Positions 12,611 through 50,800 of a stretch of DNA of 64,000 nt are shown piece by piece. Made by a program: the position numbers and the translations under genes. The stretch lies in assembly GCA_023548195.1 (NCBI GenBank), contig JAJHZJ010000008.1, positions 399,999 through 463,998 on the forward strand, written 5' to 3'. Every line of letters begins with the position of its first letter. Positions within the stretch are counted from its first letter, which is position 1. The notes below the pieces were generated by a model. The model saw only the letters and a program-made list of their open reading frames with translations. It was not told where the DNA came from and did no database searches. Source of the stretch: Bettongia penicillata ogilbyi. Its lineage: Eukaryota; Chordata; Mammalia; Diprotodontia; Potoroidae.

Positions 12611-13540
12611 TCAGTTTTGCTGGGTAGGTGATTCTTGGTTTAGTTCCTTTGACTTCTGGAATATCCTATTCCACGCCCTTCGATTCCTTAATGTAGAAGC
12701 TGCTAGATCTTGAGTTATCCTGATTGTATTTCCACAATGCTGGAATTGTTTCTTTCTAGCTGCTTGTAAGATTTTCTCCTTGACCTGGGAATTCTGGAAT
12801 TTGGCCACAATGTTCCTAGGAGTTTCTCTTTTTGGATCTCTTGCAGGTGGTGATCGATGGATTCTTTCAATACTTATTTTGCCCTCTGGTTGTAGAATAT
12901 CAGGGCAGTTTTCCTTGATAATTTCATGGAAGATGATGTCTAAGTTCTTTTTTTGATCATGGCTTTCAGGTAGTCCCATAATTTTTAAATTGTCTCTCCT
13001 GCATCTGTTTTCTAGGTCAGTTGTTTTTCCAATGAGATATATCACATTCTCTTCCATTTTTTCATTCTTTTGGTTTTGTTTTGTGATTTCTTGGTTTCTC
13101 AGAAAGTCGTTAGACTCCATCTGTTCCATTCTAATTTTGAGAGAACTATTATCTTCAGTGAGCTTTTGAACCTCTTTTTCCATTTGGCTAATTCTGCTTT
13201 TGAAAGCATTCTTCTCCTCATTGGCTTTTTGAACCTCTTTTGCCAATTGAGTGAGCCTATTTTTCAAGGTGTTATTTTCTTCAGCATTTTTTGGGGTCTC
13301 CTTTTGCAAGGTATTGACCCGTTTTTCATGCTTTTCTTGCATCTCTCTCATTTCTCTTCCCAGTTTTTCCTCCACCTGTCTTACTTGCTTTTCAAAATCC
13401 TTTTTGAGCTCTTCCAAGGCCTGAGCCCACCCAAAATCCCCCTGGGATGTCTCGGGTACTGAAGCTCCGCCCTCCACGACCTTCCCTGATGGCAAGAATA
13501 TGTCCTCGTTGTCGGATCTGAAAGTCGGGATCATTTGCAT
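12611..13540 (-). CDS. L1/HAL1 ORF1 protein, C-terminus frameshifted
   Basis: A 309-codon frame encoding an L1-type ORF1p, the nucleic-acid-binding chaperone that coats L1-family RNA. Residues about 40-180 are rich in E/K/Q/L with heptad spacing and predict a long coiled coil. The RRM-like domain opens near residue 182 (RRDNLKIMGLPE). The later basic segment PRNIVAKF...VKEKILQAARKK (241-264) is the typical ORF1p C-terminal domain. The last residues after about 300 leave the family reading. In another minus frame the expected end (ITYPAKLS...) continues to a TGA near 12498. Relative to the copy at 36458, the net difference here is 7 bases. The frame is otherwise open, which suggests a fairly recent insertion. 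Confidence 0.85.
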   Translation of the reverse strand: MQMIPTFRSDNEDIFLPSGKVVEGGASVPETSQGDFGWAQALEELKKDFEKQVRQVEEKLGREMREMQEKHEKRVNTLQKETPKNAEENNTLKNRLTQLAKEVQKANEEKNAFKSRISQMEKEVQKLTEDNSSLKIRMEQMESNDFLRNQEITKQNQKNEKMEENVIYLIGKTTDLENRCRRDNLKIMGLPESHDQKKNLDIIFHEIIKENCPDILQPEGKISIERIHRSPPARDPKRETPRNIVAKFQNSQVKEKILQAARKKQFQHCGNTIRITQDLAASTLRNRRAWNRIFQKSKELNQESPTQQN

Positions 13541-13689
13541 CTGTTCAAAAAAACTCTCTGTAGTCTTATTTTTCTTCCCTTTTCTAGGTATTTTCCCAGC
13601 CAGTTACTTGACTTCTGAGATTCCTGTCCACCCCAGCCTAGATCCACCCAGCTAGTGCTTGGGGTCTGAGATTTAAATGGGCTTTCCGT

Positions 13690-44240: not shown

Positions 44241-44499
44241 AGATTTGGGATCATTTTCTCCTGTCCCATTGGAAAAGTGGGGATGGCAAATATATGTATT
44301 TTCTTTAATTTCTTATTGGTTCTGTTGGATTAAAAAAAATTGAAAACTGCTATGCATAGGTGAAACAAAGGTTTTTATTTTTATAACTTTGTGCATCTTT
44401 CTACAAGAGAACAAAAGGCTCATTCTCTTATTTGTGTCATCCATTTGTAATGTCTCATATGTATTATATGTTCATTTGAGGTTTTTTTAAAAATTTTAT

Positions 44500-44976
44500 T
44501 GACCCGTCCTGCAGGCCAAACAGACGTGGGTGACCGAAACCGGAAAGCGCCGGGGGAGCAAGGCTCGAGGGAGGTCTAAGAGACCTGGGGACAAGATCAC
44601 AAAGAGGAAGGAGACCGAGGCATAGTTGGTAGCAGGCAGTCTCGCTTTATTGCACCAGGGGAGGGTTTATATAAGCAATCACTACAAAGTCATATCCTGG
44701 GGGTGGAGTTTTTCATCTCATTGGTGTGAGCCCCTCCAGACCAAACCAAAAAAGGGCACGATTCCCTATCCCAGGTCGTATTCCCTTCTGGTTGGTTGGT
44801 GGCTGCTTAGTCTCAGACCAGGAAGTCTTTCTAGCGCTGGGCTGGCAGAGCCACGTGGGCAGGTCAGGACTTCCTAGTACTCTCTTCCCCCCAGGAAGGG
44901 CTTTGGTCCATTGTGCCCTTAACAACTAAGAAGAGGGGAAGATAGTAACCGACAATTCAGTCTCCAGTCTCCGGCA
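44500..44976 (-). repeat. 3' LTR of the provirus
   Basis: 477 bp, from TG at 44976 to CA at 44500 on the minus strand. Compared by eye, it is the same as 50318-50794 at every position. The matching short frames in both copies (such as an 83-codon plus frame) are shadows, not genes. Confidence 0.97.
44646..44673 (-). promoter_or_regulatory. LTR TATA box and poly(A) signal
   Basis: On the minus strand TATATAAA (44673-44666) is followed 14 bases later by AATAAA (44651-44646). With a start site about 25-30 bases past the TATA box, the poly(A) signal lies at or before the cap site, implying a very short R region as in betaretroviruses. The same pair in the 5' LTR is at 50491-50484 and 50469-50464. 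Confidence 0.7.
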
Positions 44977-44990
44977 TGTCCCCCGTTTTT
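44977..44990 (-). other. Polypurine tract
   Basis: Minus-strand AAAAACGGGGGACA abuts the TG of the 3' LTR. This is the expected position for the plus-strand DNA primer during reverse transcription. It is mostly purine with two C residues. Confidence 0.75.
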
Positions 44991-44999
44991 ATTTAAAAA

Positions 45000-45230
45000 G
45001 GGTAGGTGGCTGGCCTGTCTTAGGCTATGTGGCCTGACTCCATGCCTGGTACCGAAAGTGGGCAGGGCCCCTGTCTTAGGCTATGTGGGTGGCCCCCACC
45101 TCCAGCATTTCTGGTAGGTGGACCCACAATAATCCCGTCATTGGGTACTTCTGCAGCCAGTGGTATGATTATCCAGGTCATGGGGCCACAATATTCCCGT
45201 CATTGGCGCAGTCCACAGCTTCCCTGTCGG
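45000..45230 (-). promoter_or_regulatory. Constitutive transport element (CTE)-like RNA export hairpin
   Basis: Lies between env and the 3' LTR. On the minus strand CCAATGACGGG occurs at 45206-45196 and 45144-45134, and CCTAAGACAGG at 45080-45070 and 45024-45014. These are the internal-loop sequences of the simian type D virus CTE, which binds host NXF1/TAP to export unspliced RNA. The segments next to them pair: UGUGGCC with GGCCACA beside the outer loop, UGUGGGU with ACCCACA beside the inner loop, then CCACCU with AGGUGG and an ACCAG/CUGG tip. The order is motif 1, 1, 2, 2, so both loops face the same way. As I recall, the simian element alternates them. NXF1 binding is inferred. Confidence 0.85.
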
Positions 45231-45353
45231 GAACATAGTGGAGGAGATTCATAGAAATCAGAGTAAGGGTAAAGTATCAATATCACACACAAGGAATAAT
45301 GGGAGCTAAGATGCTCAAGGATGGGGAGAACAGGGGAGGGGTTGGTGGGCTGT

Positions 45354-47099
45354 TCAGCAAGGGGAGCAGAGTCTCTTCTTCCACCGCCGGTACCAAGGTT
45401 CTTTAAGGAGATCTTCGGTAAACTGAAGCCGGTTATCTGGGGGCTCAGGGACGTCATGTTCCTGTAGCCTGCTGTAAAATATATGTCTCTTCCGGTCAAT
45501 AGCTGAATCTATCTGAGATTTAACAAGGGTGGTTAGTTTGTTAAAGGCCCAAGGGCCGAAAGAAATGAGTAGGAGAAGGCCCAAGAGTGGTCCAAGAAGG
45601 CTAGGAAGGAGTGTAGAAAGCCACGGGGAGGCGGAGAACCAGTTCTTATACCAGGATTCTTGTTGTTCCCTCTCCTTTTTCCTTCTTTCTAAGCTCTCTC
45701 TGACCTTACTCAAGCTGTTTTCCACAAGTCCTAGCCTATCTGAGTAAAAGCAGCACTCTTCTTTCAGGGCTGCGCACAGACCTCCTTGTTGTAGGAAGAG
45801 GAGGTCCAAACCTCTTCTGTTTTGTAACACAACTTCCGCCAGAGATGCTACTGAGTCTTTGAGGTGCTGTAATCCTGTCTGTAGTTCCTCTAAATCCTTA
45901 TCTATAGCTGCACTAAGCTGTGCTATCTGTTTATCATTTTGAACGAGGGAGGCAATACCGGTACCCGTCCCTACAGCTCCTAGACCCAAAAGGACGGTTA
46001 ACGTTAATGCAGTTAGTGGTTCTCTTTTTACCTTTTGGGAGCTTTCTCTCCCTTGTTGCCAGATATTTAGGAAGTCATCATTTAGATAAAAGGTGACATG
46101 AGGGAACAAAACTACCAATACACAGTAATCACGGGAGCTGATGAACTTGGAGATAACTAGAAAGGTGGTAAGGCCGGAGGAACAGGCAAAATAGTGGCCA
46201 GTAGGCGCAGAAGCATAAGTATGGTTATCAGAGACGATTACAGTCTGATTGCATATAGCTTCGAGCTGAAGAGGAGGGAGCGTATCGGGGCCCAGAATGC
46301 AGGTGCCAATGCCAGTAATTAAGCTAAGTGTCAGGCCTTGTTTTTTGTCGGTACCCCACCTAAGTTGTGAGATCTCTGATGTATAGTTGGGTGCACCGAA
46401 CTGAGCCATGCCTTCATAAAAGGGGGGGGCGGAGGAGTAGCAGACCCAGCATCCTTCAATGAATGATACGTTTAGAGTGTGTAGGGTTTGTATGGAGGCA
46501 TTAACTAGACTTAGAATCATGGAGGCAGGCGGTGATGGTCCGTGGAGTATAGTGGGGCGAAAAAGAGTGGTGTTAGAGAGAGGGGGGATTGCTGTGTATG
46601 CCAGATTGCCCCCACAAACAAAAACTTGCCCTAGTGGGGGGTACAGGGGGTCAGAGGTATTCGTCCAGGAAGAGCAATTGGGGGGCAGGGAGGACCCAAC
46701 ATTGAGGATAATAGAGTTATGGGGGGTAATTCCGGTGTAGCAAGGGGAGGGGAGAGCAAAGGGAATGCCGGGCTGAACCTTAAAGTATTTAAAACCAAAC
46801 CCATTCCAATTCCCAGGAATACCCTTCTATAGACAAGGTGGGAAACCTGTGACTAGTCCTGAAAAGTTAGTGTCTCTGAAAAAGAGTCCATTATTATCAT
46901 AGTATAGTCCATCATCTTTAAACATGTGAGAAATATTGCCTTGGATGATAAATTTGGTTATTGTCTCACTCCATGACATCACCCTTAACCATGGTGGATT
47001 CCTGACGAATGCCCATCTCTGTTGTTCCTTCGGTGCTGGGTCGATGGACGCAGTGTTCTTGAGTGTCATGATAAGTACGAGAAAAATGAAAGGAGTCAT
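45354..47099 (-). pseudogene. env: env, gamma/type-D-like, one in-frame stop
   Basis: About 581 codons in one frame from the ATG at 47099 to the stop at 45354, interrupted by a TAG at 46829-46827 (codon 91). I find no other stop. The N-terminus has a hydrophobic leader. In the downstream piece (ATG at 46520), CWVC at residues 24-27 is the SU disulfide-exchange motif. KVKR at 163-166 is a furin-type site, followed by a hydrophobic Gly-rich fusion segment. LQNRRGLDLL (232-241) is the so-called immunosuppressive domain, with CX6CC at 249-257. A membrane span lies at about 299-322, and the tail has YSRL. The paired CXXC/CX6CC mark the covalently linked SU-TM class. The stop should prevent a full envelope. 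A product from 46520 would lack a signal peptide. Confidence 0.92.
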
Positions 47100-47114
47100 C
47101 GTGACCTAGTTGAT

Positions 47115-48694
47115 TAAGCTTCTCCAGAAGTTTTTTCATCTGCCACTGACAGCACCTCCTCACTTCCTGTGACCGCTTCACCTTGGCAGTCGTCCTCTAT
47201 CACTCTTATTCTTTTCACTGGAACCCAAACTTCTTTATTATCATCTGTTAAAACACAAACATACCCTTTTCCCCACGTTAACACTGTATGAGGACCAAAT
47301 CAATTTTTATTCTCATCGTGCCTCATTACTGGCTGCTTTCAGGGCACTTGTTATTGCTGATTCATTCTTTGCAGACTCCTTATTAGGAAATGTTAAGAAT
47401 TTCATAGCAGCCAATAAGCCATCATTATAGAATTTTAAATAATTTAGAATATAAACAGCCAAACAGCCAATTGTAATTTGTCATCAATTTAGAGTATAAA
47501 CAGCCAATGGCGAATTTGTCATCAACTCCTGGTCCAACTACTCCTTTTTGTTTGTGCAAGTAGGTGTCCAGGGAGCGATTTGCTCGTTCCACTATAGCTT
47601 GACCAGTGGGATTATGGGGGATTCCAGTGACACGTAAAATGGAAAATTCCACCATGAACTGTTCAATGGCTTTACTGACATAAGCTGGACCATTGTCTGG
47701 TTTAATGCTTTTCGGTACTCCATGATTTAGAATGTGACCAAGTGTGTGTGATATAAAATATTGTTGTTTTGGCCCTCATTGCCTGTTGAACTTCCACAGT
47801 AATCTGTTTAATACTATCTGCCCTATCAGGAGTATAGGCTGACTCTAATCTAGGTATCAATAGTGCTGTATACTTTCTGTCTATGATGATATTGCAAGGT
47901 TCTTTCACATATAATAATGCTTGCAATACTGCATATAATTCATTTTGTTGTGTAGAAGTAAATGTTGTTTTAAATTTATGCATCTCCTTTTTAGATGGAA
48001 TATACATAGATGCCCTAAAATTTTTTTTTTTTTTTTTTTTTGTTGCATCTGTAAAAACATTAACTCCCTCTACCGGTGAGGAAGAGCATTTGTCGGCCCA
48101 AGATCATGGCCACGTGGCAAATTGCTGCCCAGAAGGAATTGGGAGCCCATGTTGGAAATTCTGATTAATCAATATCTGCCATTCTACAAACTCTTGTATG
48201 CAGTTCTCTATTTGTTGACTTGTATACATAGTATAAATTGTGTGAGGTTCCTGTCCTATTAACATCCTTACTCTCTTCACTGCCTTATGTATGATTTGGG
48301 CTACCAGCACAGCATAAGGCACACAAGCTCTGTTCTTTATCTGAGCCAAATGTACCCACTCAATAATCCCTTGTTTTTGATGTAAAACTCCAGTGGGTAT
48401 TTTTTCAGTGAATAAAATTGTTACTTTCAAGTCCTGTGATTCTAATATCCTGCTAATAGTACACCCCATAATCTTTTTCTGCACTAATTTCAAACATTCC
48501 AGTGCTTCATCTGTCCATTCTCTGCATGAGTTTAATTGAGAAGGACCTTTCAATAAATCATATAATGGTTTCATTTGATCAGTTGTAACTCCCAACTGTG
48601 GCCTACACCACTGAATTACTCCTATCAATTTCTGAAAGTCATTTAAAGTTGTAACCTTTGTAGAATCTATGATAGGTGATTTCAAACTTAAGCC
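47115..48694 (-). pseudogene. pol: pol remnant (RT end, RNase H, integrase), betaretrovirus-like
   Basis: Three main pieces. 48694-48104 is the reverse transcriptase thumb/connection (LNDFQKLIG...LYDLLKG). About 48075-47750 is RNase H, with FTDAT, then a 21-base A run (48041-48021) that has disrupted the frame, then STQQNELYAVLQALL. About 47745-47115 is integrase: PDNGPAY and GQAIVER are present, and a C-terminal GPHTVLTWGKGYV block ends pol just before env. RNase H is joined directly to integrase near 47745, so the RNase H end, the zinc domain and the first catalytic Asp of integrase are deleted. The RT catalytic core is also missing. No enzyme can be made. Confidence 0.88.
47430..47525 (-). 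repeat. Imperfect tandem duplication within integrase
   Basis: The unit 'tataaacagccaa..g.c.aa.tttgtcatcaa' occurs twice, about 45 bases apart. In the integrase frame this appears as a repeated GCLYSK. It is a further lesion of pol. Confidence 0.75.
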
Positions 48695-50073
48695 TTACCA
48701 CCTTACATCATTGTTTCACAGGGTAGTTTCTCCTTCTCTGATTACATTTACTCTGAAAAAGAAAACCTTTTAGAAATTAAGTTGTTAATAAGTTCAAATA
48801 CTAAATTTAACTTTTGCTTAAGCCAAGGAATGACTACAAGTTCAGATTAAAAGAGCAAGATCTTTTCTGCTTCATAGACCATTACATATTAATTTACCAA
48901 TACATTGTCTTGAAAATGAAAATTTAAAACCGTTTAAAATTTGTCCTGTTGTTAACAGTCACTAAACTTTTACAAAATTTAGTTGAAAACCTTCAAAATA
49001 ATAGTTCTCTTCTCTTGATCTAATCTGGAATGATAAAAGTTACAATTCACTGTAGACCCAGCTGAATGATAGTTGGGACTGCAGGGCAAAAATCTTAATG
49101 GTTCCATCCTTTACTCAAGTAAATTTTATTTCTGTGTCCACTCCTTAAGAACTTCTTTGATTGAGAGAGTTTTTGAATTCCTCAGCTGAAGGGAGGGAGA
49201 CTTCTGGACAACTGCCCAGTGGCGCCAAGTCTGTTCCATTCTGCTGGAGAGTTTCAAAAGCTTTATCTCTGCTGAGGTGTCCCTTTAAGATTTATGCATA
49301 TTTCCAATTTGCCTAGTGCCAAATAATATAACAAATCCTGATCTGTTTTAAACATCCAATTAGGAGTGACACATTTCACTTAAAATGTGACCAGAATAAC
49401 TACCTTTTGGTTACTTCTCATTATACAAAATACTTTTCTTTTAGGTGAGATTTAGGTGAAAATGCTGATCATCCTGCACCAGATCTCATCTCGTCTCTCT
49501 CCACCCTCACAATTTGGCCAGAATTGGAGGGAAGAGAGTAAAGCGAGAGAGAGTTTAACCAAAACTTTCAAATAATACCCAAAACTTTTATGCTTTCCTT
49601 AAACTTCATATCCATGTTGTTTTCCTAATGGGCTTTGATTAAAGCCCCCTTTAAAACTGCACAAACACTATGTCCCTGCATTTCCCATCCAAGACTACAC
49701 CTTCCAATCACATAAACTAAATAATATAAGATTAGTTCCTCTCTTTCTCTCTCCCATACTTCTCCCCGATGCTGCAGTCATCAGAGAGAAGGGAGGAGGG
49801 GGAGGGAAAGAGATAACATTCCAAGGTCCAGCCACCCTGGAGCTGACCGTAATAACTCACAAACACACGCACACAGAACATGTAAAGACAGAACACATAT
49901 ACAGACAATAAAAGAATCCAAAATACTGAGAAAAAATTGTCAGAAATCCTCTGTACACATTATAACTCTGGCTTAATTTCTATCACTGTGTAACTAAGCC
50001 TTGCATAAGATTCCCTGTCTAGACTTTCTCCCATACAAGACTGCTCTTTTAGACTTATTCCTGCAACTTTTTA
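48695..50073 (-). other. Unrecognised non-coding segment in place of gag-pro-RT
   Basis: About 1.38 kb with no retroviral protein signature in any frame that I can see, many stops, and AT-rich composition like the host DNA. It has purine/pyrimidine-rich patches (49490-49560 and 49740-49815). It lies between the 43rd gag codon and the RT thumb, replacing what should be about 3.5 kb of gag, pro and RT. It may be captured host sequence or a non-coding part of another element. Confidence 0.7.
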
Positions 50074-50205
50074 CTACACCACAGATATGTGCTGAGTGCC
50101 AGAAAAATCATAGAAGTCTTTCTTCTTAACCCTTATTCCTCTCTCTCCAAGGAGTCGTTTCAAATTCTGAACGAAAAGTTGCTCCTTAGAGAGTTGTGAT
50201 CCCAT
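50074..50205 (-). pseudogene. gag: gag 5' end (matrix N-terminus), truncated
   Basis: ATG at 50205 opens 43 codons beginning MGSQLSKEQLF, ending in TAG at 50076-50074. Gly2 with a following Ser/Lys gives an N-myristoylation-type signal. The sequence FVQNLKRLL...RGIRVKKKD resembles the start of betaretroviral matrix proteins. The rest of gag is gone: past about codon 43 the sequence passes into the unrecognised segment. It lies just downstream of the primer site and splice donor, as expected. Confidence 0.75.
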
Positions 50206-50230
50206 GGTTGCGATAGACGTGAACACTTAC

Positions 50231-50240
50231 ACTTACCTTA
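50231..50240 (-). promoter_or_regulatory. Candidate major splice donor
   Basis: Minus-strand AAG|GTAAGT (GT at 50236-50235) is a consensus donor, 30 bases before the gag ATG and downstream of the primer site. It would serve the spliced env RNA. The acceptor was not identified. Confidence 0.65.
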
Positions 50241-50297
50241 ACGGGGTCCGGACGAACTGGGACGTCTATCGCGGCAGCAGACCAGCTTTTGGGGTCG

Positions 50298-50315
50298 CCC
50301 CACGTTTGGGCGCCA
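50298..50315 (-). other. Primer binding site, tRNA-Lys(1,2)-like
   Basis: Two bases after the 5' LTR, the minus strand reads TGGCGCCCAAACGTGGGG. The usual Lys(1,2) primer site is TGGCGCCCAACGTGGGGC, so this site has one extra A. Type D viruses use this primer. Confidence 0.85.
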
Positions 50316-50317
50316 AT

Positions 50318-50794
50318 TGACCCGTCCTGCAGGCCAAACAGACGTGGGTGACCGAAACCGGAAAGCGCCGGGGGAGCAAGGCTCGAGGGAGGTCTAAGAG
50401 ACCTGGGGACAAGATCACAAAGAGGAAGGAGACCGAGGCATAGTTGGTAGCAGGCAGTCTCGCTTTATTGCACCAGGGGAGGGTTTATATAAGCAATCAC
50501 TACAAAGTCATATCCTGGGGGTGGAGTTTTTCATCTCATTGGTGTGAGCCCCTCCAGACCAAACCAAAAAAGGGCACGATTCCCTATCCCAGGTCGTATT
50601 CCCTTCTGGTTGGTTGGTGGCTGCTTAGTCTCAGACCAGGAAGTCTTTCTAGCGCTGGGCTGGCAGAGCCACGTGGGCAGGTCAGGACTTCCTAGTACTC
50701 TCTTCCCCCCAGGAAGGGCTTTGGTCCATTGTGCCCTTAACAACTAAGAAGAGGGGAAGATAGTAACCGACAATTCAGTCTCCAGTCTCCGGCA
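50318..50794 (-). repeat. 5' LTR of the provirus
   Basis: 477 bp, identical by eye to 44500-44976. Contains TATATAAA (50491-50484) and AATAAA (50469-50464). This copy would drive transcription toward lower coordinates. Confidence 0.97.
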
Positions 50795-50800
50795 TTTTAT

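Follow-up and report, generated by a model that had tools for sequence, protein, structure and literature searches.

What does a marsupial endogenous retrovirus carry between the end of env and its 3' LTR? In the window analyzed here (the whole stretch of DNA, 64 kb long), a provirus on the minus strand holds, in just this place, a sequence whose RNA is predicted to fold into a long hairpin, and which contains two copies of each strand of a loop resembling that of the simian type D CTE. We propose, with a probability of roughly 0.77, that this is an NXF1/NXT1-binding export element, a type D CTE in variant form with its half-sites head-to-tail. The proposal builds on what can be read directly in the DNA, namely the sequence, its location, the order of its motifs, its complementary stems, and the compensated differences between them. 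NXF1 binding and export would follow by analogy with the simian loops, and the geometry of the loops in the cell is a prediction from folding models.

The setting is a coding-defective, betaretrovirus-like provirus of 6295 bp (6.3 kb), which runs from LTR to LTR over positions 44500-50794. On either side of it the same 6 bp, ATAAAA, stand as direct repeats (44494-44499 and 50795-50800; Table 1). We take its priming site to be of the tRNA-Lys type. A 6-bp target duplication and a tRNA-Lys priming site are typical of betaretroviruses. In pol, the RT thumb and RNase H pieces pass the profile cut-offs, though neither family is specific to betaretroviruses. The longer piece of env matches TLV_coat with an E value of 8e-93, over profile positions 236-560 of 560 only, and the 92-residue front piece gave no profile match; either shortening or strong divergence seems to have affected the front of env. 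Among the matches listed (the best 120 of 502 env relatives), the closest to the env piece comes from Sarcophilus harrisii, at 65% identity over 78% of the piece. Elsewhere in the window lies an open L1 ORF1 (12611-13603, minus strand, 330 amino acids) at 81-82% to tammar wallaby (Notamacropus) copies. A preliminary description of this DNA had spoken of a marsupial endogenous retrovirus, and both the Sarcophilus match of env and the nearness of the window's L1 to Notamacropus copies agree with it. More narrowly, the L1 suggests that the host is probably a diprotodont.

Table 1. Coordinates of the provirus, the CTE-like element, and its parts (A, 5' loop strand; B, 3' loop strand)
Feature	Positions	Strand	Basis or remark
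CTE-like RNA element, predicted long hairpin with two half-sites head-to-tail (A1-A2-B1-B2)	45000..45230	-	motifs, folding, flank shuffles, stem comparison
A1, 5' side of outer loop, CCAATGACGGG	45196..45206	-	exact motif match
A2, 5' side of inner loop, CCAATGACGGG	45134..45144	-	exact motif match
B1, 3' side of inner loop, CCTAAGACAGG	45070..45080	-	exact motif match; includes AAGACA
B2, 3' side of outer loop, CCTAAGACAGG	45014..45024	-	exact motif match; includes AAGACA
Outer apical stem, 5' strand UGUGGCC (partner GGCCACA, 45028-45034)	45184..45190	-	pair probabilities 0.75-1.00; 7/7 pairs
Inner apical stem, 5' strand UGUGGGU (partner ACCCACA, 45084-45090)	45122..45128	-	pair probabilities 0.63-0.84; 7/7 pairs
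Middle stem separating the half-sites (partner 45040-45049)	45173..45183	-	pair probabilities 0.98-1.00
Terminal hairpin stem (partner 45096-45105)	45111..45121	-	pair probabilities 0.97-0.99
3' LTR, 477 bp, TG...CA	44500..44976	-	identical to 5' LTR
Polypurine tract before 3' LTR	44979..44990	-	read from sequence
env frame, gamma-type (TLV_coat)	45354..47105	-	one in-frame stop at 46827-46829; end stop of the frame at 45354-45356
pol pieces: RT thumb, RNase H, integrase core	47425..48694	-	profile matches; integrase core below curated cut-off
Truncated gag start	50077..50205	-	weak Gag_p10 match, E 0.0025, below curated cut-off
Primer binding site	50298..50315	-	read from sequence, after 5' LTR
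5' LTR, 477 bp	50318..50794	-	identical to 3' LTR

Because the two LTRs are identical, the RNA of the element has probably changed little since integration. The provirus is seemingly a recent insertion of a coding-defective copy, presumably one that was helped, or else its LTRs have undergone conversion. No damage is apparent in the LTRs, the priming site, or the polypurine tract, and gag, pol, and env are broken, a combination that would be expected of a non-autonomous copy still in need of its cis signals. The stretch that separates the gag start from the RT piece, about 1.4 kb (48700-50070), was tried as ten stop-to-stop pieces, none with a Pfam match; it may be non-viral sequence that was captured, or sequence in strong decay. 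Lysine codons form an A-rich run close to where the RNase H piece begins (47702-48103), perhaps a small insertion.

The element itself lies past the end of the env frame (45354) and before the polypurine tract and the 3' LTR (44976 downward). This is also the genomic place of the simian CTE, which in MPMV and SRV is described as directly downstream of env (PMC3621094). The two are of similar size as well, with 150 to 175 nt given for the simian CTE (PMC7551171) and 231 nt taken for the element. On the minus strand, which is the proviral strand, the motifs follow each other in the order A-A-B-B. The start-to-start distances are 62 for A1-A2 and 56 for B1-B2, which leaves 51 nt separating the copies on the A strand and 45 nt on the B strand. 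The preliminary claim of two A and two B motifs on the proviral strand between env and the 3' LTR, spaced at 62 and 56, is confirmed. The repeats are longer than the motifs, with identity extending to 23 of 26 bases around A1/A2 and to 19 of 19 around B1/B2. Within the element, AAGACA occurs on the B strands alone, the A strands carrying AATGAC, and each half-site therefore has a clear polarity.

How close are these strands to those of the simian viruses? The printed PCR primers for the SRV-1 half-CTE contain CCTAAGACAGG in the 5' primer and, reverse-complemented, CCAAAGACGGG in the 3' primer (PMC4330393). Against these strands, B agrees at 11 of 11 positions and A at 10 of 11, so that the earlier statement that the motifs equal the simian loops holds for B and falls one base short for A. 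Put in terms of the type D CTE of SRV-1 and MPMV, the loop strand CCUAAGACAGG is identical and the strand CC-AA-x-GAC-GGG is one base off. The flank of B can be aligned too, CACATAG in SRV-1 with CAC-TAA here, CAC preceding the B strand in both. Judged by sequence, then, both strands of the type D loop are present twice. AAGACA is the conserved sequence of that loop, and each symmetrical unit of the simian CTE is reported to hold one NXF1:NXT1 heterodimer (PMC4330393).

Might such motifs have come together by chance in repeated DNA, with no function at all? A single copy was seen, in a defective provirus, and B-like sites are not rare. With up to one mismatch allowed on both strands of the window, the window yields no additional A and a single additional B (10476, plus strand); three B sites were reached in 17 of 100 window shuffles and two A sites in 1 of 100. 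The bare count of B is unremarkable. What rises above chance is exactness, clustering, and pairing: four 11-mers, all exact, fall within 231 nt, and they are joined by stems with compensated changes. The folding controls described below also speak against chance.

The order of the motifs constrains how they can pair. A1 with B2 on the outside and A2 with B1 on the inside is the arrangement to consider, because it is the sole non-crossing A-to-B pairing that uses all four motifs in the order A1-A2-B1-B2. Both apical stems of 7 bp are perfect and stand at a common offset from their loops (5 and 3 nt). They share one register, so that the stems can be compared with their partners exchanged: nested partners form 7/7 and 7/7 pairs, and swapped partners form 5/7 and 5/7. 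Two pairs therefore differ by compensated changes. Five pairs are common to the outer and inner stems, and two are changed on both sides (C-G to G-C and C-G to U-A). This covariation between paralogous halves of one molecule favors nested, same-direction pairing, as support rather than proof, given two pairs in a single molecule. About 0.33% of random flanks of equal composition contain a perfect 7-bp helix no farther than 8 nt from a loop. On the basal side of each loop, the best perfect helix within 8 nt is 4 bp, which chance easily provides. A1 can also pair, in a different register, with a strand close to B1; this competing helix of 8 bp is expected in about 0.15% of random flanks and is thus rarer than the 7-bp stems.

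The simian CTE is two-fold symmetric (PMC4330390), and, taken with the printed half CTE, which runs B...A, this symmetry suggests a simian order of A-B-A-B. The element differs in having the order A-A-B-B, with both half-sites pointing in one direction. The preliminary description had noted that the loops face the same way, unlike those of the simian CTE, and the motif order, the compensated stems, and the simian symmetry given in PMC4330390 all support this. Could a symmetric, simian-like CTE nevertheless form through some other pairing or through RNA dimers? The strands have CC and GG ends, so that loops of A1 with A2 or of B1 with B2 are possible in principle, and two copies of the RNA could pair. 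Within one RNA, however, the cost is steep. Pairing A1 with B1 costs 11.0 kcal/mol and A2 with B2 24.6. We rejected the homotypic loops, for which A1/A2 costs 20.7, B1/B2 16.3, and the two together 26.9 kcal/mol. The compensated changes also favor A1/B2 and A2/B1. We consider a symmetric CTE highly improbable. Two-fold symmetry of the loops is absent from the element, both in its A-A-B-B order and in the 11 to 27 kcal/mol demanded by swapped or homotypic pairings, and for this reason we describe it as CTE-like, a variant standing outside the simian CTE family.

Folded by itself, the 231-nt RNA reaches -93.3 kcal/mol, compared to -79.4 +/- 4.9 for shuffled sequences (z of -2.85; 1 of 200 as low). 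The three stems named in the preliminary description, UGUGGCC/GGCCACA, UGUGGGU/ACCCACA, and CCACCU/AGGUGG, are all predicted, with pair probabilities of 0.75-1.00, 0.63-0.84, and 0.97-0.99, respectively. Folding of the minus strand, which that description had put forward as a check on its two-loop hairpin, upheld one half of it. The outer loop is stable, occupying 0.95 (0.947) of the ensemble. The inner loop occupies 0.02, costs +2.43 kcal/mol, and is marginal in single-sequence folding. It is missing from the minimum-energy fold, which forms the outer loop only and places A2 and B1 in separate small hairpins. The closing pairs on the apical side of the inner loop, taken alone, are found in 14% of the ensemble.

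How unusual are these values for RNA that carries the four motifs? As a control, the motifs were held fixed and the flanks shuffled 300 times, with dinucleotides preserved within each segment. Forcing both loops to form costs 2.46 kcal/mol in the element and 19.2 +/- 5.7 kcal/mol in the flank shuffles, none of which was as low. Nor did any of the 300 match the outer loop probability of 0.947, with 5 of 300 reaching 0.5. The total fold energy was matched by 3 of 300 and the inner loop cost by 11 of 300. We rejected the chance reading on this control, no flank shuffle in 300 holding both loops as cheaply; that these motifs are functionless coincidence is scarcely credible.

These same numbers raise the question of whether the inner half-site is needed. 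It may be that the outer half-site, A1/B2, works alone, with A2 and B1 as relics of a duplication now folded into other hairpins, making the element in effect half a CTE. The disparity between 0.95 and 0.02 of the ensemble points that way, as do the 11 of 300 flank shuffles that equal the inner loop cost, and each lobe of the simian CTE can bind NXF1:NXT1 independently (PMC4330390). On the other hand, A2 and B1 are letter-perfect, and the inner apical stem has kept 7/7 pairs through two compensated changes and is predicted at 0.63-0.84. The missing 2.4 kcal/mol could be paid by protein binding. A difference of 2.4 kcal/mol is also within the usual error of folding models. We therefore regard a lone outer half-site as rather unlikely. 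It overlaps the preferred reading, an export element with two half-sites, in that NXF1 would dock on either, and the odds of the two do not sum to one.

The behavior of the outer loop in longer RNA depends on how much is folded. Without a limit on span, its probability is 0.94-0.99 in 281 nt, 0.44-0.46 in 381 nt, 0.89-0.94 in 661 nt, and 0.55-0.58 in 721 nt, and in 1101 nt it is nearly gone (0.00-0.01). In a 1201-nt stretch, the value rises from 0.00-0.01 at a span limit of 200, too short for most of the basal stem, to 0.50-0.52 at 225, 0.90-0.95 at 240, and 0.95-1.00 at 300, and is 0.82-0.87 at 400.

AAGACA loops are also known outside the type D viruses. Those of the CTE in NXF1 intron 10 and of the MLV gamma-CTE are reported to recruit NXF1 (PMC4174252 and PMC4330390). 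The first of these resides in a cellular intron and the second in gammaretroviral pol; the AAGACA loop is what they have in common with the element, and paired A/B half-sites of its kind are not described in the accounts of them in those two papers. The MLV stem-loop suggests another role, since it is reported to act mainly in polysome loading, with NXF1 (PMC4174252). Might the element, with the same loops, likewise serve mainly in translation rather than export? Its location and full loop are closer to the type D CTE than to the MLV element as described there, and export and translation are not mutually exclusive. A chiefly translational element is very unlikely. A third comparison is with the SERV-K/MER11 transport element, a constitutive element of a betaretroviral endogenous virus that likewise lies upstream of the 3' LTR (PMC11379458). 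It is about 1 kb long and, according to its authors, without NXF1-binding loops, and we rejected an element of the MER11 type on account of that absence (PMC11379458).

Does the element have relatives? A search of the whole window against Rfam at the gathering cut-off returned no CTE match, from a library that may hold no CTE family, and a search of 371 bases with E values up to 10 gave no CTE and one chance-level snoRNA match (E of 1.7). In viral contigs, four exact-match patterns (A..A, B..simian A, the B arm, and A..B plus stem) found no relatives, diverged copies being such as would escape them. With env, viral contigs gave 3 matching stretches for a single piece and 5 for an alignment of 14 sequences, none encoding a relative. 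A scan of bacterial and archaeal contigs yielded 0. Broadly like the provirus, and possibly akin to it, are marsupial type D-like betaretroviruses with a gamma-type env: TvERV(D), from the brushtail possum, and the clades MEBrv 1/2, from Australian marsupials (PMC11334065). "Nuclear export" was not found in the main text of that paper, nor "CTE" in a count of its terms. Among the papers listed in literature searches, a marsupial or head-to-tail CTE was not found in titles and the starts of abstracts, from which we do not claim its absence from print.

How would such an element work? We propose that a type D-like endogenous betaretrovirus of marsupials uses the element, or used it when it integrated, as its nuclear-export signal. 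RNA of the proviral strand would form a long hairpin with two NXF1 (TAP) half-sites. In each half-site an internal loop, bearing the conserved AAGACA on the 3' side, would be closed by CC/GG pairs, with a UGUGG/CCACA stem after it. Through its RRM-LRR module, NXF1:NXT1 would attach to each of the loops and take the unspliced RNA to the pore, no viral protein being needed. The simian CTE is modeled as a two-fold symmetric RNA carrying a domain-swapped, two-fold symmetric NXF1:NXT1 dimer, and with mutants of the dimer interface (3A/3D/3R) the response of the CTE, otherwise 12-fold, stays under 2-fold, while bulk poly(A)+ export is still rescued (PMC4330390). In the element, two NXF1:NXT1 units in tandem would probably be independent, additive binders, not one symmetric dimer, because head-to-tail sites 51 and 45 nt apart seem to fit such a dimer in no obvious way.

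As to origin, one speculation is that a half-site hairpin was copied into its own terminal loop, giving A[AB]B. Tandem duplication would instead give A-B-A-B, and both arrangements could have come from one ancestral half-site.

What the arrangement implies is a more tentative matter. It is possible, although we lean slightly to the doubtful side, that this is a working CTE with head-to-tail NXF1 sites, for which two-fold symmetry of the RNA and a symmetric dimer platform are unneeded, and that A[AB]B nesting in marsupial type D-like viruses stands opposite A-B-A-B in the simian ones. If export does work, the parallel half-sites would offer a natural test of whether a CTE depends on symmetry or merely on having two sites. 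The type D loop sequences would also have a place in a marsupial retrovirus, and this touches the question of whether the element is old in the lineage or has been made repeatedly.
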